From Armatimonadota bacterium (GTDB lineage Bacteria > Armatimonadota > Fimbriimonadia > Fimbriimonadales > Fimbriimonadaceae): a stretch of 64,000 nt of DNA. A program made the translations under genes and the position numbers. Location of the stretch: positions 535,153 through 599,152 of the forward strand of contig JAFDWU010000002.1 of NCBI GenBank assembly GCA_018268315.1. Reading direction: 5' to 3'. Of this stretch, positions 14,290-35,322 are shown one piece after another (positions within the stretch are counted from its first letter, which is position 1; the number at the start of each line of letters is the position of its first letter). The notes beneath the pieces were generated by a model. The model made no database searches. It was not told where the DNA came from and saw only the letters and a program-made list of their open reading frames with translations.

Positions 14290-16482
14290 CTAGCTTCCGG
14301 AGTTCGAACTCGAAGACGCTGGGGAGATCTTGACCACCGACTTCTTGAACTCGGGAATCTTGCTCACGGGGTCGAGAGCCCGATTCGTCAGCAAATTCGC
14401 CGACTGCGCGCCTGCCCAGTGATACGGAATGAAGATCGTGTCAGGGCGGATGGTGGTCACCACCTTCGCTTTCAGCACAAGTGATCCTCGCCGACTCTCA
14501 ACCTTCATATCCTGCCCGTCAACAATCCCGTACTGAGTTGCAAGCGTCGGGTGAATCTCAACGTATGGCTCGGGGCACAGATCAACGAGTCCACCAATTC
14601 GCCGGGTTTGGGTTCCACTCAGATACTGCGAAACCACGCGACCGGTAGTTAGGATGACCGGATATTCGTCATCAGGCTCTTCTGCGCTGGGGCGATAAGT
14701 CACCGCATTGAAGTGGGCTTTGCCATCGGAAGTCGGAAACTTCAGGTCCTCCCACAACCGCGGAGTGCCGGGATGCCCAATTTCAGGGCACGGCCAAAAT
14801 ACGCCCATCTCGTTTTCAATTCGCTCGTAAGTGATGCCGTAGTAGTCCGCGGTTCCGCCCTTGCTCGCCACCCTCAGTTCGTTGAATATCTCTTCAGATG
14901 AGGAGTAATTGAAAAATTGCCCCCGCCCTAGCCTTCGCGCCAACTCAAGGATGATCTCAGTGTCAGCGCGCGCCTCACCGGGAGGATCAACCGCTTTCCG
15001 GATGCGGATAACGCGCCCTTCTGCGCTCGTGCTGGTGCCTTCCTCTTCCTCGTGCAGCGATCCCGCAAGAACGTAGTCCGCGTGCTGCGCGGTCTCATTC
15101 AGGAAGAAATCAATAGCGGTGTAGAACTCCAGCCGACTAAGCGCTTCGCGCGTAAAGTTGGAGTCTGGAAGTGACACAAGGGGGTTGAAGCAGATGCTGA
15201 TGAGCACCTTGATCTCGCCCTCGTGGATCATATTCATCAGTTCCTGCGCTGTATGTCCCTTTTCGGGCAGCTCCGACTCAGGAATTCCCCACACATCAGC
15301 GATGTACTTGCGATGCTCAGGATTGCTGATATCGCGGTTGCCCGGAAGCTGATCGCATTTGTGGCCATGCTCGCGCCCACCCTGACCGTTGCCTTGGCCG
15401 GTGATGGTTCCGTAACCACAGCCCGGCCTGCCGATACGCCCGGTGGCGAGTACAAGATTGATGCAAGAAACCACATTGTCCACGCCTTTGGTGTGATGTT
15501 CGATACCGCGTGCGTGCAGGAGGAACGAAGTTTTGGCATGGCCCCACATACGCGCGGCTTTCTCGATATCCTCCACCTTTACGCCGCTGATCCGGCTGGC
15601 TTCCTCTACCGTCATCGCAAGCGCGGCCGCTTTCGTCTCCTCCCAGCCGCTGGTGTGGTCGCGGATGAAGTCGTGGTCAAGAAGGTTATCTTCAATCAGG
15701 ATGCGGAGCATCGCGAGCAGCAAGGCTGAATCGGCTCCCGGCCGAACCGGCAAATGAAGGTCGCAGGTTCTCGCCAAAGGAGTAATGCGCGGGTCGACCA
15801 TGATCAGCTTCGCGCCCTTGTCGCGAGCCCGCCAAATGTAGTCGGTGGTGATGGGAGAGCACTCGGCCACATTCGTGCCAAGGCACATGATGACTTCCGC
15901 ATCGAGAATGTCCGCCCACGAGTTGCTGGTTCGGTCAAGGCCAAAAGCCTTCTTGTTCCCCGCCCCTGCGCTCACCATGCAAAGCCGTCCGTTGTAGTCC
16001 AGCTCGCGCGTTTGAAGGGCGACTCTCGCGAACTTGCCGACGAGGTAGCTCTTTTCGTTCGTTAGCGATACACCCGAGAGCAGCGCCACCGAGTTCTTGC
16101 CATACTTCGCCTGAGCCGCTTGAATCGCCTCCACTGTGCGAGAGAGGGCTTCTTCCCAACTGGTCTTTACAAAACCCACGCCCTCCACTCGCTTCAGGGG
16201 AGAGGTGAGTCGGTCAGGATGGCCGCCCTGCATGTACCGCTTCACCCCTTTCGGGCACAGTTTGCCGCGGTTGAACGGGAACTCCTCCCATGGCTCGAAC
16301 CCGATGACGCTGTTGCCGCGCACCTTTAGCTGAATGCCGCACTGCTGACCGCAGAAGCAGCAATGGGTTTTGACCAGCTTTTCCGCCTCGCCACGGCCCT
16401 GCCAGCCGCCAGGCGGCTCATAGTTCAAATGCGGGCCGAACTCTTGGATCAGCGCTTCAGGGGAGGTTGGTAGCTTTGCCAT
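14290..16482 (-). CDS. narB: Molybdopterin nitrate reductase catalytic subunit, NarB/NasA-like
   Basis: 730 residues. The N-terminus carries a [4Fe-4S] motif C-x2-C-x3-C (CCFCGQQC near residues 41-48) with a fourth Cys in GKLCPKG near 75. The Mo-bis-MGD domains follow: the probable Mo-ligand Cys in [10 protein letters not shown] near 160, [13 protein letters not shown] and [28 protein letters not shown] near 345. The C-terminal cofactor-binding domain begins at [22 protein letters not shown]. There is no Tat signal, so the enzyme should sit in the cytoplasm and reduce nitrate to nitrite with a two-electron input. Neighbours NarK, NnrS-like and Crp/Fnr support nitrate. No nitrite reductase is present here, so assimilatory versus respiratory use is open. 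It lies 6 bases after the cytochrome b gene. Confidence 0.85.
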
Positions 16483-16488
16483 AAATCG

Positions 16489-17508
16489 TTAACCGACGAA
16501 GGGTTGGCCTTCGAACAAATTTGCTTGGTTGATCGCGATCAGCTTTCGCTTTTCTTGGGGCGACAAGTTCTGGTGAGAACCGAAATCAAAGCCGATCTCT
16601 TGCATTACGTCCACGAGATCGTCGTGATGCAGCTGAGACTGGTAGGCCTGGCCCGACCTTTCGCAAATCGCCTGCGGGCCGACAGAACCTTCCATCTTGT
16701 AGAACTGGACGCCCAACTGAGCCGGACGCTGGGCAATGTGGAAGAGCTTGCCAAACGGCATGTAGAGCAGGATGAGCACTACCGTGAAGGCGTGCAACAA
16801 GGATAGGAAGGAGAAGTGCGAACCCCCCATCAGCTTGTAGCTCGCCGTTAGCATTAGCCCGCTAACCGCAACCGCAAAGAGCAGGAACAGAGGCAGCATG
16901 TCGTTGTAAAGGGTTTGGACGGCCTGCGCGCCGTGTTCGAACATTCGTCGATGCATCGCAAAGCCCACTCCGATGAGAACGAAGACCGCGCTGAAGTTCA
17001 GCGCGTTGAACATTACAAAGCCGAGGGCGCTGTGCGGGTCGAACACGAACTGGCGCATCCCCATGAACTCGACCGCATAATCGCTTCCGGCCGGGCTGAA
17101 CTGCACCCAGCCCCAACTCAGCGGAAAGGTAACCGCGAACGCAAGCAGGCAGCCCCACGCCAAGCACATGTGTCCAATCCAGCGATTGCGACCGCGCCTT
17201 GCAATGAATAGCTGCAAAACGATGTTGTGGAAGGTCAGCTTGATAAGCTTGAAGAAATTTCCGATGAGGAAACGGGGTCGGAAGAACAGCCTCCACGAGG
17301 CCACAAAGTATTTCCAGGTCGGCGGACGTTGAATCCACATCAGGTAGCGATAGGCAAACCCAAAGGCGGCAAGAACGGTAGCCGCCGCATAAGGAGCAAG
17401 GGGCGCATCAAACCGCGAGAACTGCCCCGATCCGAAGTAGATTCCCAGAAAGACACCTCCGGCCGCCAAAATCCCGCCGGCGAGGGACACTGCCTGAGAC
17501 CGGCTCAT
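16489..17508 (-). CDS. NarI/HdrE-like membrane cytochrome b
   Basis: 339 residues with about seven hydrophobic segments. Membrane histidines are suitably placed for heme b: FHNI and WIGH near residues 93-115, GFAMHRRMFEH near 195-205, and LLHAFTVVLILLYMPFGKLFH near 240-260, where two His are separated by about 18 residues as in NarI and HdrE/DsrM cytochromes. The soluble C-terminal tail carries no cofactor motif. It probably oxidises quinol and passes electrons toward the NarB-like enzyme. That link is inferred from gene order: it lies between the Crp/Fnr gene (4-base overlap) and narB. Confidence 0.7.
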   Translation of the reverse strand: MSRSQAVSLAGGILAAGGVFLGIYFGSGQFSRFDAPLAPYAAATVLAAFGFAYRYLMWIQRPPTWKYFVASWRLFFRPRFLIGNFFKLIKLTFHNIVLQLFIARRGRNRWIGHMCLAWGCLLAFAVTFPLSWGWVQFSPAGSDYAVEFMGMRQFVFDPHSALGFVMFNALNFSAVFVLIGVGFAMHRRMFEHGAQAVQTLYNDMLPLFLLFAVAVSGLMLTASYKLMGGSHFSFLSLLHAFTVVLILLYMPFGKLFHIAQRPAQLGVQFYKMEGSVGPQAICERSGQAYQSQLHHDDLVDVMQEIGFDFGSHQNLSPQEKRKLIAINQANLFEGQPFVG

Positions 17509-18233
17509 TGAGACATCACCTCCGTCAGCTTAGCTTCATCGAGGATGGAGATGAGATGCTTATCGGTAGCGACAACGCCCTCTTTCTGCCACTTGCTGAG
17601 CACACGAATAGACGTCTCGGTAGTAGTCCCCGCCATCTCAGCGATGTCCTGACGCGTTAGCGGCACCTGAATATTAATGGCATGGCCGTTTCGTGCGCCA
17701 TAAGAATCCGCGAGGATGAACAGAATGGCGGCAATTCGCTGCTCAACCTTTCCCGACGAGAGGCGAGACATCATGTCGTGTGCGCGCCGTAGCCTTGGGC
17801 CCAAGTTACGTACCACTTGATCCTTCAGCTTATCGTTAGCCTGATAGGCGGCAATCAGATTCCGTGCCGACGCTTTCATGTACCAACAATGGGTGGCAGC
17901 AAGCGCGCTTAGCGGAAAAGAGCGCCCCTCAAGCACGACCATTAACCCCAGGCACTGACCCGGGCCAAGGAGTTCAACCGCCATTTCCTGGCCGCTCGGA
18001 TTCAACTTCGTCATCTTGATGAACCCCACGCCGATGATCGCCGCATATTCAGCGGGTGAGCCCGCGTGCCAAATTAACTCGCCGCGCTCCGCATAGGCCA
18101 TGAACGAGGATTCGATGAGGTCTTCGCGCTGGGCCTCGGTTAGCGGGTTCAGCAGTGTGCATGCTTGAAGCACACTCGCCTTGGTGGGCCGCTCCGGAAT
18201 TGATGAGAAGTCGGTAAGAACGGGGTCAGGCAT
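17505..18233 (-). CDS. Crp/Fnr-family transcription regulator of the nitrate cluster
   Basis: 242 residues: an N-terminal cyclic-nucleotide-binding-like beta-roll (about 25-140, with GELIWHAGSPAEYAAIIGVGFIKM and GPGQCLG), a dimer helix, and a C-terminal winged helix. The recognition helix lies in LTRQDIAEMAGTTTETSIRVLSKW near residues 190-213. The E and R of that helix correspond to the residues that read TGA half-sites in Crp and Fnr. No FNR-type N-terminal Cys cluster is visible, so oxygen sensing by Fe-S is unlikely; the signal could be NO, redox or nitrate-linked. It sits inside the nitrate operon and is the natural candidate for the three 16-base dyads upstream. Confidence 0.85.
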   Translation of the reverse strand: MPDPVLTDFSSIPERPTKASVLQACTLLNPLTEAQREDLIESSFMAYAERGELIWHAGSPAEYAAIIGVGFIKMTKLNPSGQEMAVELLGPGQCLGLMVVLEGRSFPLSALAATHCWYMKASARNLIAAYQANDKLKDQVVRNLGPRLRRAHDMMSRLSSGKVEQRIAAILFILADSYGARNGHAINIQVPLTRQDIAEMAGTTTETSIRVLSKWQKEGVVATDKHLISILDEAKLTEVMSQ

Positions 18234-19557
18234 GGGCTAGGACCTTCCTCTGCAACACGGGCGAAAAGACGTTGACCGCCCAGATAACGAGTCCCGTAAG
18301 TTCGATGAACCCGGTTACACCCATCGGGGCAAATGCATTCGGCGTGTAATCCGAGAGTATCTCTAGGCTCACGCGGCCCGCGTTGCCCAGGTTAAGCAGC
18401 CAGAAAGCGGTCGCCAACGGAGCAAGCCGTGAGATATCCAGATCATTCATTCTCGCCACTACGTGAGCGCCCACGCCAAGAATCATCTGAGAAATAAACC
18501 CAACCGTCACCGCGTGTCGGACGGCACCGATATACGCGTGGGAGAACGCCTGGCCCGTCCGCGCCAGATGCAGCGGCTCCAGAATAAGCAGGACGCCCGA
18601 AACGCCAAGCCAGAACATGCTGCCTCGGATGAACTTGTGGGACCTTACGCTGAACTCCAGCGGCTCAAACATTCGTAGCGCCACCAGAAGCACACCGGCG
18701 GACACCGCAAGCACTGCGCCTCCATTGAAGTAGAGGCCCTGGTGAGCTGGATCAAGATCGCCGCGGAAGTAAACAACCCAACCGACCATCCGCATCAGGA
18801 GCCCAACGGTCCAGCCGACGAAGCCCATCAGCGCGAGCTGCCGATGAGGCGCTTTCGCGCCGAAGCAATCGCTCATCTTCACGAAGGCCACGCCGAATAT
18901 CATCATGGCGACAAAGCCGAGGAATTGAGCTTCGCGATAGGGCGGGAAATACTCGGCCACGAAGCGAATTCGCTCCATCGGCGATCCCGAGTGCGAATAG
19001 AAGAAGTAGAACGGCTCGGCGATCGCCACCAACGGCCACCAGAACATGGAAGCGAACACGAAGGTCGTTGGCCACGTGAGCCCGCGCCCGTCGTTGTAGC
19101 GCGTTAAGGTTGTATTCGCATAGAACAGGATCACGCCCACGATCTGCAAAATCGAGGCGCCCACCCCTAGCGCCATCCCGACGCCCTGGTTACCGACAAC
19201 AATCGGTTCAGCAACAAACCGAAGAGTAACCGCTGCAATCATGCAGGCGAGGGATGAGTATGCGAGCTTGTAGAAAAGCTCAGCCTTGCTGCGCCGTGGC
19301 GCGTGCTGCTGAAGCGCGAACCCCATGATGAATAGCCCAACCCATCCGTAAAGCTGGGCGTTGGCATGAGCAAGGACGTAGGGCGTCCACTCTGGCGTTG
19401 TGTAGCTTCCCTTCATGCTGATGCCGGCGAGGGCAAGCGCTCCCAGGAGGCATCCTGCGGTAAGGACGCTCAGAACTCCGGCGAGGAAGAAGGGACGGTA
19501 CATCTCGGTGACTACCCGCTCATCGCTACGATTGACCACTTTCAGCGCGACTTGCAT
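18226..19557 (-). CDS. NnrS-like multi-pass heme/copper membrane protein
   Basis: 443 residues with about 12 hydrophobic segments and no large soluble domain. The N-terminal TEMYRPFFLAGVLSVLTAGCLLGAL and the His-containing HANAQLYGWVGLFIMGFALQQHAPR resemble the F-R-P-F-F and H-x-H...GF blocks of NnrS proteins. Further membrane His occur near the C-terminus (AVRHAVTVGFISQMILGVGAHVVARM). NnrS proteins are linked to nitric-oxide stress and denitrification regulons. Relief of nitrosative stress during nitrate use is the likely role here (inference). It overlaps NarK by one base (TAATG) and the regulator by eight. Confidence 0.72.
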   Translation of the reverse strand: MQVALKVVNRSDERVVTEMYRPFFLAGVLSVLTAGCLLGALALAGISMKGSYTTPEWTPYVLAHANAQLYGWVGLFIMGFALQQHAPRRSKAELFYKLAYSSLACMIAAVTLRFVAEPIVVGNQGVGMALGVGASILQIVGVILFYANTTLTRYNDGRGLTWPTTFVFASMFWWPLVAIAEPFYFFYSHSGSPMERIRFVAEYFPPYREAQFLGFVAMMIFGVAFVKMSDCFGAKAPHRQLALMGFVGWTVGLLMRMVGWVVYFRGDLDPAHQGLYFNGGAVLAVSAGVLLVALRMFEPLEFSVRSHKFIRGSMFWLGVSGVLLILEPLHLARTGQAFSHAYIGAVRHAVTVGFISQMILGVGAHVVARMNDLDISRLAPLATAFWLLNLGNAGRVSLEILSDYTPNAFAPMGVTGFIELTGLVIWAVNVFSPVLQRKVLAHA

Positions 19558-21065
19558 TAGCGCACCCCCGCTACCGGCTTAAGCGGAATCTCGTCCGCTT
19601 CATGGACGTCAGCTGACTCGTGTTGCATCTTCAGAATTGAGAAGTGCATCCACGCCATGGCAATGAGAGAAAGACAGGCGATCAGGAACCAGCAGGAGGT
19701 CCATAAACCGGTTGCCTTGAGGAACTGACCGAAGATGATTGGGAACACGAAACCGCCAAGGCCGCCAAGTACGCCCACCATTCCTCCAACTGCGCCAATA
19801 TCGTTCGGGAAGTAGGTTGGAATGTGCTTATAGACCGCCGCCATGCCCAGGCCCATCATGATGCCGGCGATGAAGAGCAGCGTCGAGAACACCATCCGAT
19901 TAGCCTGGAAATAGACATGCGTGAGTCCCCGGGCCAAAATCTGTTTCTTTGTGACGGTGTCGCCCACCTTGACCGATGGCTCTTGCCATGAGTGGAAGAC
20001 CGGCCACACCACCGTCTCACTGTCGTACTTCCCGACGTTATCCTCGCCTCTAGCCTTCAGGTTGTAGGTCACACCGCCCGCAACAACCTGCGAATTGGAG
20101 ACAGCAGTGACAACGCCCTTCTTATCGGCAAGGAGTCCTTCGCCCGGAGACGTGATTTCCATCTTCGGCGCAACCAGAAATAGGAAGAGAATCGAAACAA
20201 CGGAGAACACGATGTAGAGCGTTGAACGAGCGCCGATACGGTCGGAAAGGAAACCGCCGAGCGCGCGGGTTACCGCCGAAGGAATGCTGAAGGCGATCGA
20301 CATCGCGCCCGCCGCCGCTACCGTCAGCCCGTACACGTTCAGATAGTAGGGGATGAGCCACTGCGAAATTGCTACGAACCCGCCAAAGAGTACGAAGTAG
20401 TAAAGGCCGAAGCGCCACACGCGCACGTTCGCAAGCGGCTTCAACAACTCGCCCATTGTCCGGGCCTTCGCCTCACTCTTCTTCGGCACTGCCAGCAACG
20501 CGAAAATCACTGCCATCGCGATTAGCGCGCCTGCGTAGATCTGAGGAACCTGCCTCCAAGCCGCCATGTCCTCACCCTTGCGGGTCACCGAGTCGAGCAG
20601 CTTCGGAGCAAGCAGCGCGGTAACCGCGGTTCCGATATTGCCCATACCGAACAGACCAAGCGCGGTTCCTTGCTTTGCCTTAGGAAACCAAAGTGAAGTG
20701 TAGGCGACGCCCACTGCGAACGATGCGCCGCTGATACCGAACGCGAGACCACCTATCAGGAAGGTTGTGAAATCGCTTGCATAGCTTGTCAGATACATGG
20801 CGATACCAGCGATGACCATCACCGCGATGTACACCGGCTTGCCGCCGATCTTATCGGCGAGGATTCCAATGGGTAATCGCAAAATCGATCCCGTCAGGAT
20901 CGGGATTCCGATAAGCCAGCCAATTTGGCCCTTGTCGAAATGGACCACCTGGTGATCCTGCAAATAGGTGATTAACACTGCATAGAGCGTCCAAGCTGCG
21001 AAGCAGACAAGGAAGGCCAGCGTGTTAAGGAAAAGAACTCGATTCGCGTGTTTCTCGGCGTTCAT
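19557..21065 (-). CDS. narK: MFS nitrate/nitrite transporter, NarK type, with a periplasmic insert
   Basis: 502 residues, 12 membrane helices. The NarK/NasA pattern is visible: RLPIGILADKIGGKPVYI after helix 2, GISGASFAVGVAYTSLWFPKAKQGTALGLFGMGNIGTA in helices 4-5, and the second nitrate-signature-like GAVGGMVGVLGGLGGFVFPIIFG near residue 430. About 80 extra residues (about 305-387) lie between helices 9 and 10 on the outer face. They are beta-rich and contain VKVGDTVTKKQILARG, a lipoyl/barrel-like turn. The start has no strong ribosome-binding site, and a Crp-type dyad is centred 41 bases before the ATG. Role: nitrate import or nitrate/nitrite exchange for the NarB-like enzyme. Confidence 0.87.
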   Translation of the reverse strand: MNAEKHANRVLFLNTLAFLVCFAAWTLYAVLITYLQDHQVVHFDKGQIGWLIGIPILTGSILRLPIGILADKIGGKPVYIAVMVIAGIAMYLTSYASDFTTFLIGGLAFGISGASFAVGVAYTSLWFPKAKQGTALGLFGMGNIGTAVTALLAPKLLDSVTRKGEDMAAWRQVPQIYAGALIAMAVIFALLAVPKKSEAKARTMGELLKPLANVRVWRFGLYYFVLFGGFVAISQWLIPYYLNVYGLTVAAAGAMSIAFSIPSAVTRALGGFLSDRIGARSTLYIVFSVVSILFLFLVAPKMEITSPGEGLLADKKGVVTAVSNSQVVAGGVTYNLKARGEDNVGKYDSETVVWPVFHSWQEPSVKVGDTVTKKQILARGLTHVYFQANRMVFSTLLFIAGIMMGLGMAAVYKHIPTYFPNDIGAVGGMVGVLGGLGGFVFPIIFGQFLKATGLWTSCWFLIACLSLIAMAWMHFSILKMQHESADVHEADEIPLKPVAGVR

Positions 21066-21098
21066 GTTTCAATCTTGCGCCGGTTGGCGCGTGTCTGC

Positions 21099-21114
21099 TA
21101 TGACCGTCGTCATA
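21099..21114 (-). promoter_or_regulatory. Candidate Crp/Fnr operator 1 (before narK)
   Basis: TATGACCGTCGTCATA is a 16-base dyad with 5-base half-sites and a 6-base spacer (TATGA-N6-TCATA), the geometry of Crp-family sites. Its centre is 41 bases before the narK ATG, and it overlaps the last codons of the preceding small membrane-protein gene. Two similar dyads precede two other units of the cluster. Confidence 0.6.
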
Positions 21115-21346
21115 AGCGTTCTTTTTCCAGTCGGACGACTCCAAAGTACATCCAAACATTGACTCCGAAGCAGACAAGGCTCCCGATCGCCGCCGGGACC
21201 GCCATTGCCGGCTTGCCGTCCACCAAGTTTTCGACTACGCCGAAGCAAAGCCATATTTGGATCAGCACCAGCATGAGGTTGAAAAGGAGGAGGCCGATGA
21301 ATGTGGCCGATCTCTGCTCGTGGCGGGCCTCTTCGACTGATTTCAT
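21110..21346 (-). CDS. Small two-helix membrane protein of the nitrate cluster
   Basis: 78 residues with two clear membrane helices (TFIGLLLFNLMLVLIQIWLCF and AVPAAIGSLVCFGVNVWMYF) joined by a short charged loop. No cofactor motif and no family I can name with confidence. The ATG overlaps the stop of the Rieske gene (ATGA), so it is made with the Rieske and ferredoxin proteins and may anchor or stabilise their complex (inference from position). Confidence 0.7.
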   Translation of the reverse strand: MKSVEEARHEQRSATFIGLLLFNLMLVLIQIWLCFGVVENLVDGKPAMAVPAAIGSLVCFGVNVWMYFGVVRLEKERL

Positions 21347-21843
21347 CCTTCCTTCACCTCCTGGTGGCTTACGCCAAGCGCGTAGATTTCCGCGCCCCGG
21401 ACCTCAAGAAGAACTTTGGGTAGCGGACGCGGCGGCGGGCCCTGCAGCACCTGCCCATCCGTCAACGAGAATGCGCCGTTGTGGCATGGGCAATACAAAC
21501 GCTCATGCTCGGGTTGGTACTCAACCGGGCAGGAAAGGTGCGTGCAGCGCCGACTGTAAGCCACATATTCTCCCGCCTTGGGCTGAATAAGAACGCAAAG
21601 ATCCTGGGGCCGCGGATACGAGAATTGGAGCGAGCCGCCAACCGGCACGTCGCTAACATTGGCGATCATCGCCGGTTCGAAGCTGATACGCCCACGATTG
21701 ATGCTAGAAAAGACCGCCATCCCCACCGACCCGGCAGCAAGGCCGCCGCTGGCAAGCGTGAGGAACTTAAAGAACTCACGGCGCGAAACGTAGTTGTCTT
21801 CCACCCAATCGACGGGAAAGCTTTGCTTTAGTTCTTGATCCAT
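21343..21843 (-). CDS. Tat-exported Rieske [2Fe-2S] protein
   Basis: 166 residues. A Tat-type signal anchor begins near residue 20 (SRREFFKFLTLASGG). The Rieske ligands are CTHLSC near residues 105-110 and CPCHNG near 123-128, both complete (C-x-H...C-x2-H), and a PPPRPLP turn follows as in cytochrome bc Rieske proteins. It carries one electron outside the membrane or at its surface. It is cotranscribed with a four-cluster ferredoxin and a small membrane protein, so these may form an electron-transfer module with the cytochrome b and NarB (inference). Its start overlaps the ferredoxin stop by one base. Confidence 0.87.
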   Translation of the reverse strand: MDQELKQSFPVDWVEDNYVSRREFFKFLTLASGGLAAGSVGMAVFSSINRGRISFEPAMIANVSDVPVGGSLQFSYPRPQDLCVLIQPKAGEYVAYSRRCTHLSCPVEYQPEHERLYCPCHNGAFSLTDGQVLQGPPPRPLPKVLLEVRGAEIYALGVSHQEVKEG

Positions 21844-22439
21844 TACTTCAACCTCGAATTTGCCAGCAAGTCGGTCTTCCTAATTGCCGCGCCGCTGTCC
21901 ACCGTCATACTCTTTGTCCCCGGCGGGGCCATCAGCGAAACCTTCGTTTTGATCGTGCGCGAGCCGAAGTGGAATTCATTTATGGGTGTGCCGTGGCGCT
22001 GGGCGGCAATCTCTTCCGGAGTGCCAAAGAACAGCGCGCCAGAGGGGCAAACCGTTGCGCACATCGGCTTCTTGCCAACCGATGTACGGTCATAACACAT
22101 GTCGCATTTCATCATCTGGTCGCGCTGAACCTCGTACTTGGGAACGCCGAACGGGCAAGCAAAAACGCAGTTTAAGCACCCAATGCATCGCGGCTTGAGC
22201 GAGGACTGGACCACACCATCAGGCGTCCGCTTGATTGCATCAGCCGGACAGACCGCCGCGCAGGCGGGCTCATCGCAGTGCATGCAGATGATCGGCGTAG
22301 TCTGAACCGTATACCCGCGTTGAATCTGTTCAAGGTGGATCATCGAAGCCCCTGCATGGGTATCGCACTCCGCGCAGGCGGCGACGCACGCGTTGCACCC
22401 AATGCATCGGCTAGGGTCGATATAGAAGCGTTGCTCCAT
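21843..22439 (-). CDS. Four-cluster [4Fe-4S] ferredoxin subunit (NrfC/DmsB/HybA-like)
   Basis: 198 residues with four Cys groups: [11 protein letters not shown] near residue 12, [14 protein letters not shown] near 52, [12 protein letters not shown] near 86 and CDMCYDR with a distal CATVCP near 112-128. This is the standard electron-transfer subunit of molybdoenzyme complexes. There is no signal peptide, so it is cytoplasmic unless carried by a partner. First gene of a three-gene unit with the Rieske and small membrane proteins. A Crp-type dyad and a CATAAT -10 element precede it, and GGGGGTAAGTA just before the ATG can serve as ribosome-binding site. Confidence 0.85.
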
Positions 22440-22450
22440 TACTTACCCCC

Positions 22451-22492
22451 ATTATGCTGGTCTTGGCGGCCTGCGCCATGATGGCCGTCATG
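22451..22492 (-). promoter_or_regulatory. Candidate Crp/Fnr operator 2 with -10 element (before the ferredoxin gene)
   Basis: The dyad CATGATGGCCGTCATG (22477-22492) has the same CATGA-N6-TCATG geometry as the other two sites. On the minus strand a CATAAT hexamer lies at 22456-22451. The dyad centre to -10 centre distance is 31 bases, which fits a class II Crp/Fnr-activated promoter (site centred near -41.5). The dyad centre is 45 bases before the ATG and overlaps the end of the DUF7009-like gene. Confidence 0.6.
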
Positions 22493-22868
22493 GTTGACGG
22501 TGACGCGCCTTGAACCCCTCGGGCGCGCTGAACGTCTCGGTCTCCGGTTCGCCGGTCTCAGGAGGACGTTCGTGTGCGCACGGAAAATCCTTTTCCACGA
22601 AGTAGCGAATGGATGGCTCGTGGGCCGAGTTGAAGTAGATGCCCTCCCTGCTCGGCTCGCCTAGCCGTTTGATGTCAGCATGCGAGAGCTTGACGGTAAC
22701 TACCTCACCTTCAAGAATCAGTTCTGTTTCCTGGCTCGGCTTCACCTCAATCCCCCATCCGCTGGACCGGAATATCCGTTGGGCAACCGCCTGTCCGTCC
22801 AGAAGCATCTCCAACTCCGAGGGAGTGATCCTCATCCGCAGACTCTCAGGCATCCAGCGTACTTTCAT
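22488..22868 (-). CDS. DUF7009-like conserved small protein
   Basis: From ATG 22868 the product is 126 residues: MKVRWMPESLRMRITPSELE, a central region with SGWGIEVKPSQETELILEGEVVTVKLSHAD, and a C-terminal FVEKDFPCAHERPPE. The opening and the VEKDFPC..RP motif resemble the DUF7009 family of unknown function. A longer frame to 23042 would run into the porin gene and has no ribosome-binding site, so the ATG 20 bases after the porin stop is preferred. No signal or membrane segment. It is cotranscribed with the porin; role unknown. Confidence 0.68.
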   Translation of the reverse strand: MKVRWMPESLRMRITPSELEMLLDGQAVAQRIFRSSGWGIEVKPSQETELILEGEVVTVKLSHADIKRLGEPSREGIYFNSAHEPSIRYFVEKDFPCAHERPPETGEPETETFSAPEGFKARHRQP

Positions 22869-22888
22869 TGGGCTAATTGGAGGACGCT

Positions 22889-24052
22889 CTAGAAGCGATA
22901 TTGTGTTTGAAGGAAAACCCACGTCTGATTCGCCGCCGACCCTTTCAACACGTTGCGGACGAAGCTGCCGGGTTGGAAATATCCGAGGCCCGCGCTGAAC
23001 ACGAGGGTCTTCTGATAAGTGTAACTGGCCTCCACATCCCATTCCTGACCCACGTCTTTGCCGCTTCCACCGGTTGGGTCAACATAGGTCCCCCCCGGGC
23101 GGGCGTTGGCAACCCCATTGGCGGCATACCAGGCATCGGCGGCGTCAAAGAGCCACAGCCGGTGATAAGACGCCTTCCCGGTCACGTTCTGGCAAGGCTT
23201 GAAATCCGCTCCAATCGCCAACTCCTGCATGTTTCGCCATCCTTGCAGATCCATGGTTCCGTAAAACGGGTGGTTGGTGGGATAAAGGTTATCGAAAGTG
23301 CGCGTGCTGTTCGGCCCACCTCCGCCGGTGGCGAGGTTAGCTTCCAGAAAAGTGGAAATCTTGGGTTGAAACGCCTGGGTTGCGCGGGCATGAAGCGCAT
23401 ACGCTGAGAGGCGCTTACTGGCAACACTTCCGGTCTGCACGGCGCCCTCGGTTTCAAGGCTGAGGGGACCGCGACGCCATTTGCCGTTGTAATTGAGGGT
23501 TGTGACGTCCACATTGCCGGCGGCAATTTCGTCGTGTTTTTGCAGCAGCGCCACGTATTGGCTCCCGTGAGATAGGATCGCGCCGAAGATGCGCGCATTC
23601 GCCGGATAGGGAGAAGCGGTTCCGATCCTCGCCCCGAAGAATTCCATCGTCTTGGATTTCCAATCGATTCCATCAAACGACCTGGCGGTGTTGACCCATT
23701 CCAGCGTGCCAATTAGGCGCTGATCGCCAACGATGATGGGCTGGCGGCCGACGGTGAGAGCGCCGGTGGCATCTTTGTAGCGAAGGAACGCAAACCTAAG
23801 ATCGCTGTTGTGAGGGTTCGCATCGCCGCTTGGCTTCCAGTAGCGGTCGTCGGCGAATTGGTATTGCGCCTCGCCGGAAATCCCGCCCGGAGCGTTGAAG
23901 CGCGCGCCAAGCCTGATGCGGGCATATACGTCGCTTCGCGCATCCGAAGTCGCGGATGAGAAATCAACGTCGCTCCGCCTTTCGTAGCGGACGCGGGACT
24001 CGAGATAAGGCTGAAAGTCGATGGTTTGCTGCGGCAAGTTCGTAAGCACCAT
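22889..24052 (-). CDS. Outer-membrane porin, alginate-export-like barrel (no visible signal peptide)
   Basis: 387 residues of alternating beta-strand pattern ending in Phe (FLQTQYRF), typical of outer-membrane barrels. The segment LTVGRQPIIVGDQRLIGTLEWVNTARSFDGI near residue 100 is the signature of alginate-export-type porins, which occur beside nitrate genes in several phyla. It could admit nitrate across the outer membrane (inference). The N-terminus MVLTNLPQQTIDFQPYLE is not a signal peptide, and the frame is closed by TAG at 24088-24086 only 11 codons upstream. The 5' end therefore looks truncated or frameshifted. A Crp-type dyad lies 42 bases before the ATG. Confidence 0.78.
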   Translation of the reverse strand: MVLTNLPQQTIDFQPYLESRVRYERRSDVDFSSATSDARSDVYARIRLGARFNAPGGISGEAQYQFADDRYWKPSGDANPHNSDLRFAFLRYKDATGALTVGRQPIIVGDQRLIGTLEWVNTARSFDGIDWKSKTMEFFGARIGTASPYPANARIFGAILSHGSQYVALLQKHDEIAAGNVDVTTLNYNGKWRRGPLSLETEGAVQTGSVASKRLSAYALHARATQAFQPKISTFLEANLATGGGGPNSTRTFDNLYPTNHPFYGTMDLQGWRNMQELAIGADFKPCQNVTGKASYHRLWLFDAADAWYAANGVANARPGGTYVDPTGGSGKDVGQEWDVEASYTYQKTLVFSAGLGYFQPGSFVRNVLKGSAANQTWVFLQTQYRF

Positions 24053-24086
24053 GCTAGGAAGTTTCGACTCGTTTTCGGCCCGCCGC

Positions 24087-24102
24087 TATGACCGCGATCA
24101 TA
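24087..24102. promoter_or_regulatory. Candidate Crp/Fnr operator 3 (between porin and mobA)
   Basis: TATGACCGCGATCATA, TATGA-N6-TCATA, lies in the 84-base gap between the divergent porin and mobA starts. Its centre is 42 bases before the porin ATG and 42 bases before the mobA GTG, so it could serve both genes. Same motif and spacing as the other two dyads of the cluster. Confidence 0.58.
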
Positions 24103-24136
24103 CGCCCTGAAGCGCGGGTTCTGGCAGAATGAACTT

Positions 24137-24694
24137 GTGCTGCGGGATGTTGAGGCGGTGCTGCTGACGGGCGGCCAAAGCAAGAGGATGGGCCAGGACA
24201 AGGCTTCTCTGATAATTCATGGAGAGCCGATGGGGCGTCGCATCGCGCGCGAGCTTGCAGCCGCGGTTGAAAAGACGACCGTCCTCGGGCGCGAGGCAAT
24301 TCCTGGTTACGCCTTTCAGCTCGATGAGGAGGAGTTCGGCGGGCCGCGATCGGCGCTTCGCGCGTTCACTCCGTCGCTTGCTTACGTCTTCGTGGCGTCC
24401 TGCGATTTGCCTTTGTTTCGTTCTGAAATCGTTGGGTTTCTGCGGGAGCGGATCGACGGCTTTGAGGCGGCGATCTGCCGCTGTGAGGGGGAGTTGCAGC
24501 CCTTGTGCGCCCTTTACGCGCGGTCGGCGTTTGATTCGCTTGTTGCGAGTCCGGCTTCCGAGCGCCGGCTCATACGGTGGGTTGAGCAGCTAAGGCTGCG
24601 GGAGGTGGATGACGAGGAGTTGCGACTGGGGGGCATTGATCCGAGGTGGGTAAGGAGCGCGAATACGGCGGGGGAACTTGAACGCCTTCTTTGA
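24137..24694 (+). CDS. mobA: Molybdenum cofactor guanylyltransferase MobA-like
   Basis: 185 residues from a GTG start. The N-terminal nucleotide-binding loop VLLTGGQSKRMGQDKASL (residues 8-25) is the MobA/IspD-type motif, followed by FGGPRSALRAF and YVFVASCDLPLF with the metal-binding Asp. MobA adds GMP to molybdopterin to form the guanine dinucleotide cofactor used by NarB-type enzymes, which explains its place next to the nitrate genes. It is transcribed divergently from the porin and shares the intervening region containing operator 3. A related NTP-transferase is possible but less likely here. Confidence 0.83.
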   Translation: MLRDVEAVLLTGGQSKRMGQDKASLIIHGEPMGRRIARELAAAVEKTTVLGREAIPGYAFQLDEEEFGGPRSALRAFTPSLAYVFVASCDLPLFRSEIVGFLRERIDGFEAAICRCEGELQPLCALYARSAFDSLVASPASERRLIRWVEQLRLREVDDEELRLGGIDPRWVRSANTAGELERLL

Positions 24695-24890: not shown

Positions 24891-24917
24891 CAATTACCCA
24901 ACATTTCACCCAACATT
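24891..24917. repeat. Arm-type repeat, left copy
   Basis: 27 bases holding two ACCCAACATT units, matching 40156-40182 at 26 of 27 positions in the same orientation. Its placement near both island ends suggests integrase or excisionase arm-binding sites. It overlaps the 3' end of the nuclease gene. Confidence 0.6.
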
Positions 24918-25868
24918 TTCAGGCGGGTTTCCTATTGCCTTGGGATGGCGAGCACAGGCACGAAAGATGCAGCCCTGGCAGCGCCAGGTTTCGGTTGTCG
25001 TCGGAAACGCCGCATCAATGTCTGCCTCTCCCGAACCAACCATCCTAAGCCCTTCGGCAACCACCCCTATTTGATGCCTCCACGCTCGCTCAAGCCTCGC
25101 CACGAGAGACATGTCAACCTTGGTCCTGCCCAAGTAGTTCGCCGAAAGCCAAACTGCAATTAGCTCCATATCTTCATAGGGAACTCCCCATTCGCGATGA
25201 GCAAAAATCGCATAGCCGTGAAGCTGCTCGATGGCTCCTTGCTCCCCATTGGCCACGTCACCAGTTTTCCAATCGTAGATGCGCAGTCGGCCAGGCTCGA
25301 CGGTCATGAAGTCGTACTTGGCATATACCTTCATCCCTTCCAATTCAAACGAAGGGATTACGCCGCTTTCTGGCACACGCCATGTCTCGGTTGGAAGCGA
25401 ATCAAGTTCGCTCCTTAGCGGCAGTTCGAACCACCTCTCCACTAACTGTTGAGCCCTTCGTCTCAAGTCAGTCAGTTCATGCTCGGTCAGAGGCGAGTTG
25501 TAGTAGAAACGATCAACCGCCTGACGCTGCTTGCTCTTGGGCCACCTGTCCCGATTTAATGCGGCAGCAACCCATTCGGCTGAAAACCTTAGGTAGCCGA
25601 CCATCACTCTCTCGACAGCCTTACCAATGCCGTTGGGCCACTTCCCTTCGCGCAACCTATGCCTCAGCGCCGCCGTGATTGCGTCATCCACTACGCGACC
25701 CAACAGCGCCGAACTAGGCAGCAGATTTCCTTGACGCTTCAGTTCCCAAAATTCCTGGCCTGAGGCAGCCACATCAGGTTCATAGCGAAACAGCCACTGC
25801 CTCCGACACTCCTTGAATGCCTTGTGGTTCAAATAGGAGATTGATGGGCCGTGATCGATTTTCGCCAC
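24906..25868 (-). CDS. PD-(D/E)XK nuclease with probable Fe-S cluster (Cas4/AddB-like)
   Basis: 320 residues from a GTG start. A Cys near residue 20 (FKECRRQWLFRY) and a C-terminal WRCQGCIFRAC supply the four-Cys pattern of Cas4/AddB-type Fe-S nucleases. The active-site core is visible as KYDFMTVEPGRLRIYDWKTG near residues 185-205 (D then D-W-K) and QLHGYAIFA near 215. This family makes exonucleases acting on DNA ends in repair, CRISPR adaptation or defence. It is the last gene at the left island end and is transcribed away from the defence operon. No CRISPR array or cas genes are present, so a stand-alone island function, defensive or recombinational, is likely. Confidence 0.78.
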   Translation of the reverse strand: MAKIDHGPSISYLNHKAFKECRRQWLFRYEPDVAASGQEFWELKRQGNLLPSSALLGRVVDDAITAALRHRLREGKWPNGIGKAVERVMVGYLRFSAEWVAAALNRDRWPKSKQRQAVDRFYYNSPLTEHELTDLRRRAQQLVERWFELPLRSELDSLPTETWRVPESGVIPSFELEGMKVYAKYDFMTVEPGRLRIYDWKTGDVANGEQGAIEQLHGYAIFAHREWGVPYEDMELIAVWLSANYLGRTKVDMSLVARLERAWRHQIGVVAEGLRMVGSGEADIDAAFPTTTETWRCQGCIFRACARHPKAIGNPPENVG

Positions 25869-26040
25869 TGCTTAGCCCCAACCGATTGTCCAATGCCGAA
25901 CGCCAACCGAATTCATTTAGATTGCAATAGTATGCACAAACGTGGTCAAGTGGGTACCCTAGTTCCCTGCATTTGCTAGGCTCAGGAGGCAATCAGATAT
26001 TCGAGCCAGCGATTGTAAGAAGTCCTGGAAACCTCAAATC

Positions 26041-26319
26041 GTGGCTAAAGAAATCAAAACCAAGAGTTCCTTTGGAACAATACGCGTCGATCACGTCAGC
26101 CCGCCACTTTCGGGAGATACTCCGAAGGGAATTAACCTGGTGATCTCATTTGAGGAGGCATTGAAGCTCCACCTCGGCCTGCTTCAAGTTCTTGGCAAGC
26201 TCAACGGGTACAACCGTAACACAGCCGAGGGAAAAGCAAGCGCCATAAACCTCTGCTTGTTTACGGATACAAATCGGCTCACCATTAACGAAGACAAAGT
26301 GAAGCAGCCCAAGAAGTAG
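26041..26319 (+). CDS. Small hypothetical protein upstream of the defence operon
   Basis: 92 residues from GTG, no signal or membrane segment. The sequence reads like a real compact protein (GTIRVDHVSPPLSG, then an amphipathic helix FEEALKLHLGLLQVLGKLNGYN) but I do not recognise a family. It lies 61 bases before the PLD-helicase gene in the same direction, so it may be cotranscribed. Ribosome-binding site is weak. It could be a specificity, regulatory or antitoxin-like accessory protein; nothing in the sequence decides. Confidence 0.5.
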   Translation: MAKEIKTKSSFGTIRVDHVSPPLSGDTPKGINLVISFEEALKLHLGLLQVLGKLNGYNRNTAEGKASAINLCLFTDTNRLTINEDKVKQPKK

Positions 26320-26380
26320 CCTGTCGGTGTAGTAACGGCAACTCAGTAAGCAAATCCGAACGACTACCGCTGAATAGCAA

Positions 26381-29300
26381 ATGCCACGTATATTCGATAA
26401 CATTGATCTGCCGTTCTTGCCATCTCTTGAAGAGATGCTCGGCACTGCGGTATCGGCAGACTTTTGTGTCGGCTTCTTCAACCTTCGCGGATGGAACCGA
26501 CTGGGGCAGGTGGTTGACGAGCGCTTTAGCGGCCAAGACGCCAGCCGATGCCGCCTGTTGGTCGGCATGCAGTCTCTAGGCGAAGACGAGGTCCGTCAGG
26601 TGTATAGCCTTGTGCAAGAAGACGCCCTCGACGCTGCCAAGGCGATTCAACTTCGCAAGCGCATGGCCGAGCAGTTCCGCCGGCAGCTAACGATTGGAGC
26701 GCCGTCCGAACTCGACGAATTCAACCTCCAACGTCTTGCGCGTCAGCTTCGATCCGGCAGGCTCGTGGTGAGGCTGTTTCTCCGTAACAGCCTCCACGCT
26801 AAGCTTTACCTCACCCACCGCCAGGACGTTGCCGCGCCGATAGTGGGTTTCGTTGGAAGCTCGAACCTCACGTTCGCCGGACTCATGAAGCAGTTCGAGC
26901 TCAATGTGGACGTGGTCGAAGGCGACGCCGCAGCGAAGCTGGCACGATGGTTCGAAGACAGGTGGAATGACAAGTGGTGTCTCGACATCTCCGAAGAGCT
27001 TGCCGAAATCATCGAGGCAAGTTGGGCCAGACCGTCGATCATCCCGCCCTATCATATCTATCTCAAGATCGCCTATCACTTGGCGCAGGAAGCAAGGGCG
27101 GGTCTTTCCGAGTTCCGCATCCCGAAGGATTTCGGCAACCGACTCTTCGACTACCAGGTCGCGGCAGTTAAGATTGCCGCCCATCACCTCAACAACGACC
27201 GTCGAAAGGGAGTTGTACTCGGCGACGTTGTCGGTCTCGGCAAAACTCTAATGGCGACCGCGCTCGCGAGGATCTTCGAGGATGATCTCGGCCTTGAAAC
27301 GCTGATTATCTGCCCAAAGAACCTCGTTGAGATGTGGGAGGACTACGTGCACCGTTACCGACTTCGAGCCAAAGTCGTTCCGATCACGATGGTTGCCCCG
27401 CACACACGAGCAGGTTCAGACGGGAAGGAAGAAAGGTCAGGCGGACTCCACGACTTGCGCCGGTACCGCCTGGTGATACTCGACGAGAGTCACAACCTTC
27501 GCAACCGGGAGGGGAGTCGCTACCGCGCCATCCAGGAATACATCTCCCAAAACGAATGCCGCTGCATTCTTCTCAGCGCCACTCCTTACAACAAGGCGTA
27601 TCTTGATCTCGGAGCCCAACTTCGCCTCTTCGTTCCCGAAGGACATGACCTCGGAATTCGGCCCGACTTGCTCATCAAAGATATTGGTGAGGTTCAGTTC
27701 CAAGCCCGTCACCAGTGCCCGGTCCGAAGCCTTGCCGCATTTGAAAAGAGTCCGTATCCCGACGACTGGCGAGAGCTCATGCGCCTCTACATGGTTCGGC
27801 GCACACGCGGGTTCATCAAGGAAAACTACGCTCATACCGACGAGGCGTCGGGACGCAAATTCCTCGTTCTCGAGAACGGTGAGCGAACCTACTTCCCGGA
27901 TCGAATCCCGCGCACAGTGAAGTTTGAGGTTGACGACAAGGCCGGCGATCCCTACGCCCGCCTCTACAACACGGCCATCGTCACCCGGATCAACTCGCTC
28001 AACTTGCCGCGTTACGGACTCGGCAATTATATCGCCAGCACGCCAGCGACACCACCCACTCAGGCCGAAGCGAAGGTGTTGAGCGATTTGGGCCGCGCTG
28101 GCAAGAGGCTCATGGGGTTCTGTCGCACGAACCTGTTCAAGCGACTTGAGAGCAGCGGCCTTGCCTTCATTCAGTCATTGGAGCGGCACGTCCTTCGGAA
28201 TTACGTCTACCTTCATGCGATTGAGCAAGGGCTTCCTATCCCGATTGGCACAAGCGATCCGTCGATGCTCGATTCGGATGTGTTCGACAGAGACGCCGAC
28301 GACACTTCGTTTGCGGGCAGCATTTTCGATGACGGAGAAGATGCAACAGTGCCGGAGCCTCCATCAGTTCGCGAACCAATTTGCTCCGAGGAGGCGTTCC
28401 GTGAGAGGGCAGAAAAGGTCTACGACACCTACGCTTCACGCTACAAGCGCCGGTTCCGCTGGCTCAGACCGGAACTCTTCGTAGGGAAGCTCGGTGACGA
28501 TCTTCGTTCGGATGCCGAATCAATTTGCCAGGTGCTAAAAGATCACGGCCATTGGGATGCCTCAAAAGACAAGAAGCTCGGAAAGCTTTTCGAGCTGCTG
28601 ACGACGACCCATGCCAGCGAGAAGGTCATCGTGTTCACGCAATTTGCAGACACCGTTGACTACCTCACGACAGAACTCAAGAAACTCGGCTTGAAGGCCC
28701 TTGAGGGCGTCAGTGGAGATAGCGAGAACCCGACTCGACTTGCTTGGCACTTCAGTCCAGTCAGCAACGACAAACGCGATCTCGTGAAACCAAGCGACGA
28801 GCTTCGTGTACTCATAGCGACGGACGTGCTTTCAGAAGGTCAGAACCTTCAAGACGCTCACGTCGTGGTCAACTTCGACCTCCCATGGGCGATCATCCGG
28901 CTCATCCAACGTGCCGGTCGCGTTGACCGAATCGGCCAGAAGCATGAGCAGATCTACTGCTATAGCTTCTACCCAATGGACGGAGTTGACCGAATCATCA
29001 ACCTTCGAGGTCGAGTGCGGCAACGGCTCAGCGAGAATTCCGAGGTTGTCGGTGCTGACGAAATCTTCTTCGAGGACATGAAGGTCGATCACCGCTATCG
29101 CGATCTATACAACGAGAAGGCAGGCATCCTGGACCAAGACGACGACTCCGAAGTCGACCTGTCTTCTCAAGCGTTTCAGATTTGGAAGAACGCGACGGAC
29201 GCCGACCCATCGCTCAAGGCGGTCATCGAAGATCTTCCTGACGTTGTGTTCAGCGCAAAGGAGCACGTAAGCGAGCCCACTCGACCGAACGGGGCACTGG

Positions 29301-29827
29301 TTTACTTGCGCACCGCCGATGGCAACGACGCGCTGGCGTGGGTGAACGAGCGGGGCGATCCAGTGACCGAGTCACCTCTAGCCATCCTTCGCGCTGCCGC
29401 TTGTAAACCCGACACTCCTTCAAGACCGAAGGCGGCAAATCACCACACGATTGTTCGCTCGGCAGTTCAGCGAATGGTTGAAGAGGATTCCTTATCCGAC
29501 AAATCTGGTGGCCAGCTGGGAAGAGAATCGGGAGCACGTTTCAGAACGTACATGAGGCTCAAAGCGTATGCCGAGCATGTGAAGGGCACTCTGCTGGAAA
29601 GTGAGGAACTGCACCGAACCATCGAGGACGTCTACCGATTCCCGCTCAGGCAGTCTGCAACCGACACCTTGAACCGGCAACTAAAGGCTGGAATTGGAGA
29701 CGAGGCACTCTCAGAGCTTTGTATCGCGCTCCGCGATGAAGGACGCCTTTGCTTCGTGGAAGACGAACAAGAGGTTCACGAACCAAGAATCATTTGCTCG
29801 CTCGGACTCGTTGGGGGCACAAATTGA
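26381..29827 (+). CDS. Phospholipase D-like nuclease fused to SNF2-type helicase (defence)
   Basis: 1148 residues. The N-terminal region (about 1-200) is PLD-like, with LHAKLYLT near residue 138 and GSSNLT near 158, the H-x-K and following G-S-x-N pattern. The SF2/SNF2 helicase follows: motif I GDVVGLGKT near 280, motif II LDESHN near 367, motif III LLSATPYNK near 405, and the second lobe with VIVFTQFADTVDYL near 750 and RAGRVDRIGQ near 845. PLD-helicase fusions act as ATP-dependent restriction nucleases (for example R.NgoAVII-like enzymes) and in DISARM-like systems. Its stop overlaps the methyltransferase start (TTGA), so the two are coupled. Confidence 0.83.
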   Translation: MPRIFDNIDLPFLPSLEEMLGTAVSADFCVGFFNLRGWNRLGQVVDERFSGQDASRCRLLVGMQSLGEDEVRQVYSLVQEDALDAAKAIQLRKRMAEQFRRQLTIGAPSELDEFNLQRLARQLRSGRLVVRLFLRNSLHAKLYLTHRQDVAAPIVGFVGSSNLTFAGLMKQFELNVDVVEGDAAAKLARWFEDRWNDKWCLDISEELAEIIEASWARPSIIPPYHIYLKIAYHLAQEARAGLSEFRIPKDFGNRLFDYQVAAVKIAAHHLNNDRRKGVVLGDVVGLGKTLMATALARIFEDDLGLETLIICPKNLVEMWEDYVHRYRLRAKVVPITMVAPHTRAGSDGKEERSGGLHDLRRYRLVILDESHNLRNREGSRYRAIQEYISQNECRCILLSATPYNKAYLDLGAQLRLFVPEGHDLGIRPDLLIKDIGEVQFQARHQCPVRSLAAFEKSPYPDDWRELMRLYMVRRTRGFIKENYAHTDEASGRKFLVLENGERTYFPDRIPRTVKFEVDDKAGDPYARLYNTAIVTRINSLNLPRYGLGNYIASTPATPPTQAEAKVLSDLGRAGKRLMGFCRTNLFKRLESSGLAFIQSLERHVLRNYVYLHAIEQGLPIPIGTSDPSMLDSDVFDRDADDTSFAGSIFDDGEDATVPEPPSVREPICSEEAFRERAEKVYDTYASRYKRRFRWLRPELFVGKLGDDLRSDAESICQVLKDHGHWDASKDKKLGKLFELLTTTHASEKVIVFTQFADTVDYLTTELKKLGLKALEGVSGDSENPTRLAWHFSPVSNDKRDLVKPSDELRVLIATDVLSEGQNLQDAHVVVNFDLPWAIIRLIQRAGRVDRIGQKHEQIYCYSFYPMDGVDRIINLRGRVRQRLSENSEVVGADEIFFEDMKVDHRYRDLYNEKAGILDQDDDSEVDLSSQAFQIWKNATDADPSLKAVIEDLPDVVFSAKEHVSEPTRPNGALVYLRTADGNDALAWVNERGDPVTESPLAILRAAACKPDTPSRPKAANHHTIVRSAVQRMVEEDSLSDKSGGQLGRESGARFRTYMRLKAYAEHVKGTLLESEELHRTIEDVYRFPLRQSATDTLNRQLKAGIGDEALSELCIALRDEGRLCFVEDEQEVHEPRIICSLGLVGGTN

Positions 29828-34562: not shown

Positions 34563-35179
34563 AAGTCGGATTCGTTGTTGAAGGGTCCGATCGAAGTGCT
34601 GGGGACGTATTTGCGATCCGAGAGCTTTGCATTAGGCTTGCATCCGTCCACGGCGTAACACGGGTTCCAGAAGTCTTGGCTGGTGGAAGCAAAAAGGAAC
34701 TCAAGGAGAAGGCCCACGACCACCTAAGCAGCCTTCGCGAGCTTGGCTGCGAGCGGATTATCTTCGTCTGGGACAATAGCCCGCCGTGGACTCTTGACGT
34801 TGCTGAGCTTGACCATGACGTTGCGGAGTGGGAGCAAGGCATTAGGGACGTAATTATCGATAACGATGAGTCCTTAGATGGAGTGGAGCTCGTATGCGCC
34901 CGGCAAGAGGTCGAGGCTTGGTTTCTAGCCGACGGCACAGCGATCCGACAAGTTCTGAAGTCGATCCGCAACAAGAGCGGTATCAACATCAAGACCGTTA
35001 AGATTCCCGAGTCTGTTATGAAACCGAAGCGGCACTTTATTTGGAAGTACTGGGATGACCATTTTGGCCGCCAGCCGTATGGCACCGAATACCGGCTCCT
35101 CGCGAACCACGTTGGACTAGAAGCATTAAGATCGTGCCCATCCTTTGTGCGCTTTGAAGCGGCGGTGGTGGCTCCATGA
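34559..35179 (+). CDS. TOPRIM/DUF4276-like effector paired with the OLD-like ATPase
   Basis: 206 residues. It begins MKVGFVVEGSDRSAGDVFAI, with the Glu of a TOPRIM-type first motif, then RIIFVWDNS near residue 63 with the Asp-containing strand, and ARQEVEAWFLAD near 117, which resembles the C-E-..-E-W-L segment of DUF4276/RloB-type proteins. These TOPRIM-fold proteins act as nucleases or RNases in defence pairs. The start overlaps the ATPase stop, so the two proteins are made in step. The exact family is from pattern memory and could be another TOPRIM branch. Confidence 0.68.
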   Translation: MKVGFVVEGSDRSAGDVFAIRELCIRLASVHGVTRVPEVLAGGSKKELKEKAHDHLSSLRELGCERIIFVWDNSPPWTLDVAELDHDVAEWEQGIRDVIIDNDESLDGVELVCARQEVEAWFLADGTAIRQVLKSIRNKSGINIKTVKIPESVMKPKRHFIWKYWDDHFGRQPYGTEYRLLANHVGLEALRSCPSFVRFEAAVVAP

Positions 35180-35322
35180 TCGAAACTTGTGAAGTCAAAG
35201 CTGCTTCCGACATATTTTGGACCAGATCCGAACCTACAAGCGGCATGACGTCCTCCCTGGCCGACATGAGTAATTGTCGTCTTCCCTTGACCTTCCAAAA
35301 GGGGCCATTGCAACCCCCAATG

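Follow-up and report, generated by a model that had tools for sequence, protein, structure and literature searches.

What do three similar 16-base dyads do among the nitrate genes of an Armatimonadota bacterium, and which protein reads them? The dyads lie in a 64,000-nucleotide (nt) stretch of a Fimbriimonadaceae genome (2.8 Mb; contig JAFDWU010000002.1 of assembly GCA_018268315.1), which we call the window and whose numbering is used throughout. From sequence comparison, we consider it highly probable that a Crp/Fnr protein of 242 residues, whose gene lies among them, binds these dyads and activates the nitrate genes in class II fashion, giving mostly leaderless mRNAs. The dyads are as follows.

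21099-21114, minus strand: dyad 1, TATGACCGTCGTCATA (read on the minus strand as TATGACGACGGTCATA), matching the strict motif defined below and kept before narK orthologues.
22477-22492, minus strand: dyad 2, CATGATGGCCGTCATG (read on the minus strand as CATGACGGCCATCATG), a predicted Crp/Fnr dyad.
24087-24102, no single strand: dyad 3, TATGACCGCGATCATA, between the divergent porin and mobA genes.

A sequence-only reading of this DNA had singled out these three dyads as sharing NATGA-N6-TCATN, and all three are present as it described. It had placed their centres 41, 45 and 42 bases ahead of the narK, ferredoxin and porin genes; counted to the first base of the ATG, the distances are 41.5 for narK and 45.5 for the 4Fe-4S ferredoxin, and the porin ATG lies 42.5 bases from dyad 3. 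The divergent mobA GTG, also 42.5 bases from the centre of dyad 3, had been overlooked; dyad 3 is probably bidirectional, serving both porin and mobA. Two dyads do straddle the stop of the preceding gene: the TGA of a small membrane open reading frame (ORF) lies inside dyad 1 and that of a DUF7009 ORF inside dyad 2.

The same dyad recurs in relatives: about 25 genera were sampled, with loci no longer than 20 kb, and in these it stands before narK, nasC, ferredoxin, nnrS, mobA, porin and some crp genes, with the gene order reshuffled. When all 5-mer dyads with spacers of 0-12 bases were counted in 80 nitrate-cluster upstream regions (window and relatives), with no motif assumed, TATGA with an N6 spacer was the commonest (51/80), followed by its own overlapping forms, and the best unrelated dyad reached 5/80. 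The core ATGA-N6-TCAT was present in 71 of the 80 regions and other spacings in none of them; the boxes of CRP (TGTGA dyad), FNR (TTGAT-N4-ATCAA or TTGA-N6-TCAA) and NtcA (GTA-N8-TAC) each scored 0/80. Sites preselected by the ATGA core gave a symmetric logo, (C)TATGAY-N4-RTCATA(G). The informative motif is TATGAY-N4-RTCATA, which we call strict, rather than the looser NATGA-N6-TCATN. With this word and its spacing turning up again across dozens of related genomes, a regulon arising by chance is very unlikely.

Counts in the source genome point the same way. The loose pattern ATGA-N6-TCAT occurs 65 times against 9 for a reversed control and is, at that number, unspecific and weak evidence by itself, so we rejected its genome count as proof. 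NATGAN6TCATN has seven copies in the window, and the four besides the dyads sit within longer ORFs. The strict motif has three copies in the genome (reversed control 0), two of them in the nitrate cluster; the third is on contig 8, flanked by moaA-moaC-moeA on one side and by a molybdoenzyme-ferredoxin-cytochrome-Rieske operon on the other. Every strict site (3/3) thus adjoins nitrate or molybdenum-enzyme genes. We judged one-mismatch sites at C2:233442 and C8:114133, both within ORFs, to be chance matches, and loose sites at C2:134228 and C4:18724 likewise lie within ORFs. The sequence-only reading had offered a motif scattered genome-wide as one refutation, and the loose pattern is so scattered, whereas the strict one is not. 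Its proposal of a Crp/Fnr regulon holds as an interpretation by virtue of the comparative data; the three sites alone would not define one.

Motif and regulator travel together. Strict sites were found in all 24 sampled genomes, the source genome included, in which the regulator has an orthologue (E < 1e-30), and in 3 of 17 without one (Fisher p = 2e-8, uncorrected for kinship); the 24 genomes hold 103 strict sites, against 1 for the reversed control. Within genus g41, genome G151 has neither regulator nor sites, and its sister species G065, G099 and G177 have both. Among named genomes, the closest ones that carry the regulator belong to the Armatimonadota, most of them under the labels Fimbriimonadales, Fimbriimonadaceae or Chthonomonas.

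The regulator gene does lie in the same cluster, as had been noted, within the narK run.

17505-18233, minus strand: Crp/Fnr regulator, 242 amino acids (aa), recognition helix TTTETSIR, with PF13545, PF00027 and PF00325 above their cut-offs.

It carries a cyclic-nucleotide-binding-like sensor domain and a Crp-type helix-turn-helix (HTH), which place it in the Crp/Fnr superfamily, and is the only Crp_2 HTH protein above the Pfam cut-off in its genome. An AlphaFold2 (AF2) model (pLDDT 87.9) has the ordinary Crp/Fnr fold and matches CRP, GlxR, NtcA and FNR with Z of roughly 18-23 across some 190 residues or longer stretches. Across 20 orthologues, Glu206 and Arg210 (E181 and R185 of CRP) are invariant, residue 205 (R180 of CRP) is Thr or Val, and residue 209 is Ile. 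The sites show the TGA-N6-TCA core expected for Glu181/Arg185 readers, of which the protein is a candidate. Rodionov et al. (PMC1274295) tied a half-site position to residue 180, so that the invariant pair together with the changed residue 205 fits a conserved TGA core with an altered half-site. Other classes fit less well. The FNR cysteine set is missing, the protein having only Cys25, Cys94 and Cys116, none of them invariant in the 20 orthologues; the cyclic AMP (cAMP)-contact Glu and Arg are both replaced in an alignment with GlxR and Mycobacterium tuberculosis CRP, which together with the count of 0/80 for TGTGA dyads sets the protein apart from cAMP-dependent CRP; and the counts of 0/80 for both TTGAT-N4-ATCAA and TTGA-N6-TCAA speak against the DNR operator class. 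The switch probably recognises TATGAY-N4-RTCATA.

The position of the dyads is that of a class II activator, and -10-like hexamers lie where such an activator would need them.

21072-21077, minus strand: CAAGAT, at centre+29.5 of dyad 1; predicted +1 is the A of the narK ATG, leaderless.
22451-22456, minus strand: CATAAT, at centre+28.5 of dyad 2; predicted leader of about 4-5 nt.
24125-24130, plus strand: CAGAAT, before the mobA GTG, at centre+30.5 of dyad 3.
24059-24064, minus strand: AAACTT, before the porin ATG, at centre+30.5 of dyad 3; weak.

The CATAAT that had been reported 31 bases from dyad 2 is there, at the same distance centre to centre. Among the upstream regions, a centre-to-start distance of 41.5 or 42.5 was found for narK in 12 of 16, nasC in 12 of 15, ferredoxin in 10 of 21 and porin in 4 of 9. 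When start-aligned, these upstream regions favour A at -11, A at -9, A or T at -8, T at -7 and T at -1. Aligned on the dyad, hexamers with A at position 2 and T at position 6 peak at centre+29.5 (which is -12 when the dyad centre is at -41.5), in 60% of sites near a start codon and in 46% of the far ones; at most other offsets the share is only around 5%. Far sites are a useful control, because their start codon lies elsewhere and yet the place of the -10 is unchanged. The class II spacing proposed earlier thus agrees with an activator-like dyad near -41.5 and a -10-like peak at the same offset near and far, with activation itself predicted.

Since the dyad and the -10 put +1 on or a few bases from the start codon, the messages would have no leaders or very short ones, and transcription most likely starts on or beside the start codon. 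Of the near genes 16% are preceded by a Shine-Dalgarno-like word, as compared with 49% of genes inside operons; together with the spacing, the place of the -10 and the T at -1, this predicts that the targets are mostly leaderless mRNAs. Ferredoxin orthologues often lie at 42.5 with a GTG start; in the source genome that GTG position reads GTA and the next codon, ATG, is used, which accounts for the 45.5 bases and the predicted 4-5-nt leader. At the strict site on contig 8, GATAAT lies about 29.5 bases from the centre and the ATG 64.5 bases away, predicting a leader of about 24 nt that contains an AGGA word. The earlier suggestion of short or absent leaders therefore carries over to the cluster, where 0 to about 5 nt are predicted, and fails at this fourth site. 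We also considered leaderless genes as a general trait and set the idea aside: the -12 signal before other first genes of the loci compared is too small (9% against about 5%), and automatic start calls blur it.

We envision a dimeric 242-residue Crp/Fnr protein that would bind TATGAY-N4-RTCATA centred at about -41.5 and activate sigma-70-type promoters in class II fashion. This would switch on nitrate uptake through NarK, a NasC-like nitrate reductase and the Fe-S, Rieske and membrane proteins that go with it, the porin, NnrS and MobA, and at a second locus the further molybdoenzyme operon, perhaps with the divergent moaA-moaC-moeA. As its gene lies in the narK run, the regulator would also feed back on itself, and the signal could be nitrate, nitric oxide or the redox state.

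Three other explanations deserve weighing. The fixed spacing could reflect mere promoter overlap if the Crp/Fnr protein were mainly a repressor, or an activator or repressor depending on the target: dual regulation is common among Crp/Fnr proteins, the -35 region shares bases with a dyad at -41.5, and some dyads lie at other distances. We regard this as unlikely, because an exact -41.5 spacing with a poor -10 is a class II hallmark where a repressor would tolerate other positions, and the tandem dyads of relatives, 46-65 bases apart, look like multi-site activation. A regulator of a different family might instead bind the dyads, with the Crp/Fnr gene a mere neighbour, as strict sites in G014, G039 and G157, genomes with no close orthologue, would allow; the co-occurrence of orthologue and sites (24/24 against 3/17), a dyad ahead of crp in some relatives and, at exactly 41.5, in FCPU426, and a TGA core with N6 that suits the Crp contacts E181 and R185 make this quite improbable. 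Least credible of all, at close to nil, is chance: ATGA/TCAT half-sites overlap stop and start words and could form accidental dyads near gene ends, as the 65 loose copies and the TGA stops within two cluster dyads might suggest, but the strict sites (3 against 0 in the source genome, 103 against 1 in genomes with the orthologue) and a spacing kept even though the preceding gene differs among relatives already contradict it.

Several points weigh against activation by the Crp/Fnr protein and should temper it. The narK and porin -10 elements are weak; nnrS, crp and nasC of the source genome each lack their own dyad; the start codons of relatives were picked by script; the single-regulator argument depends on a Pfam cut-off; p-values are overstated because related genomes are non-independent samples; and the three genomes with sites and no close orthologue count here as well. 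In one of them, G014, with strict sites on contig 7 (L074), a Crp of 32% identity lies next to mobA and may read the same motif.

Comparison with known systems places the switch among class II Crp/Fnr regulators while setting it apart from each. Escherichia coli CRP acting at class II promoters shares the fold, the E181/R185 equivalents, an N6-spaced TGA core and a centre at -41.5; its half-site is TGTGA rather than TATGA, it has Arg180 where Thr or Val stands here, the targets here are predicted to be leaderless, and the cAMP-contact Glu and Arg, by comparison with GlxR, are not conserved. FNR and DNR (TTGAT-N4-ATCAA) share the control of nitrate respiration and the Crp/Fnr fold, and by sequence DNR ranks with the closest relatives of solved structure; A replaces T before the T of the TGA core (TATGA here, TTGA there), and, unlike FNR, the regulator has no N-terminal Cys set. 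NtcA resembles it in controlling nitrogen genes and as a structural neighbour (Z up to 22.5), whereas its GTA-N8-TAC box is absent from the 80 upstream regions; NtcA is not known to have a Glu at position 181.

HcpR proteins are nitrogen-oxide regulators of the Crp/Fnr type that lack the FNR cysteines; one of their motifs, TTGAC-N4-GTCAA, goes with a change of Arg180 to Ser or Pro (Rodionov et al. 2005, PMC1274295). They are alike in the changed residue 180 and the missing cysteines and differ in motif, phyla and targets, their motifs being TGTGA-N6-TCACA, TTGAC-N4-GTCAA and GTAAC-N4-GTTAC, none of them TATGA (PMC1274295). NnrR of alpha-proteobacteria has common targets in nnrS and nitrogen-oxide genes and a different motif, ctTTGcg-N4-cgCAAag (PMC1274295). 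NnrR and HcpR were set apart by comparing our consensus with those published motifs; the scans covered the TGTGA and TTGA types.

The remaining genes of the cluster are these.

19557-21065, minus strand: narK, nitrate/nitrite transporter of the major facilitator superfamily, first gene downstream of dyad 1.
18226-19557, minus strand: NnrS-like membrane protein, Pfam match slightly under cut-off; orthologues have their own dyads.
16489-17508, minus strand: 339-aa membrane protein of the narK operon, with weak NarI/QmoC similarity.
14290-16482, minus strand: NasC-like molybdoenzyme, probable nitrate reductase catalytic subunit, last of the narK-nnrS-crp run.
21843-22439, minus strand: 4Fe-4S ferredoxin subunit, DmsB-like, first gene downstream of dyad 2.
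21343-21843, minus strand: Rieske protein, after the ferredoxin gene.
21110-21346, minus strand: small membrane ORF, 78 aa, 40-49% identity in relatives.
22889-24052, minus strand: porin of the Alginate_exp family, first gene left of dyad 3.
22488-22868, minus strand: DUF7009 ORF, downstream of the porin.
24137-24694, plus strand: mobA-like nucleotidyltransferase, first gene right of dyad 3.

In relatives nasC is preceded by its own dyad at 41.5-42.5. The NasC-like molybdoenzyme, DmsB-like ferredoxin, Rieske protein, small membrane protein and NarI/QmoC-like protein at 14290-22439 are grouped in relatives too, and possibly encode an unusual quinol-linked nitrate reductase. The contig 8 locus (L187:6990-15138, genome G000) holds a type II DMSO-reductase-like molybdoenzyme with ferredoxin, cytochrome c and Rieske genes, divergent from moaA-moaC-moeA around the dyad. 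Tandem dyads with centres 46-65 bases apart occur upstream of ferredoxin (L064, L140, L142, L143, L144) and of narK (L104, L127, L060); the distance is 62 at the ferredoxin gene, and the arrangement resembles multi-site (class III) activation. Other strict sites in Armatimonadota relatives precede genes for NrfH, a decahaem cytochrome and a second molybdoenzyme, as well as nnrS and narK-like genes.

The system appears to be of an ordinary kind, a Crp/Fnr class II regulon spread lineage-wide in a phylum that has been studied little; its half-site has no match in the literature searched. An open-access search, limited by the slash in 'Crp/Fnr', returned nothing joining Armatimonadetes, Crp Fnr and nitrate reductase; the motif in several spellings and a paper linking leaderless with Fimbriimonas were likewise not found in the open-access literature searched, and the anammox meta-regulon paper PMC8510549 makes no mention of Armatimonadota. 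Such absences are no proof of novelty. For nitrate respiration in a phylum represented here largely by metagenome-assembled genomes, the analysis names an operator, a regulator and targets that can be tested. It also pairs a DNA word with a helix (in CRP numbering Thr/Val 180, Glu 181, Ile 184 and Arg 185) to which the literature searched assigns no site, extending the position-180 rule. The apparent firing of these natural class II promoters on the start codon could make them useful for joint study of activator-dependent transcription and leaderless translation.

The same helix, GTTVETxIR, is found in proteins of Nitrospirota, Hydrogenothermaceae and others; in most of the AT-rich Hydrogenothermaceae genomes strict sites are near background. 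We are evenly divided on whether this marks a separate Crp/Fnr subfamily that reads TATGAY-N4-RTCATA in Armatimonadota, FCPU426 and perhaps Nitrospirota, Omnitrophota and Chloroflexota and controls nitrate and nitrosative metabolism, with Armatimonadota promoters in which the start codon is +1. A genome of candidate division FCPU426 (G187) has 15 strict sites against 0 for the reversed control, and a strict dyad there lies exactly 41.5 bases before crp (L181:5287-5302). In a Nitrospiraceae bin with the same Crp helix, a strict dyad (L176:2254-2269) precedes by 70.5 bases an operon of ferredoxin and hcp (hybrid cluster protein-like), the gene names being a reading of the translated start. Locus L148 (JADZEW010000018.1), titled Methanoregulaceae archaeon SJ84, carries a Fimbriimonadales-type nitrate cluster with dyads, which probably points to a mistaken title or a mixed bin. 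Finally, adjoining the nitrate cluster, positions 24906-35658 of the window hold large ORFs of another character (among them a helicase-like one of 1148 aa and one of 1197 aa) that may form a defence island.

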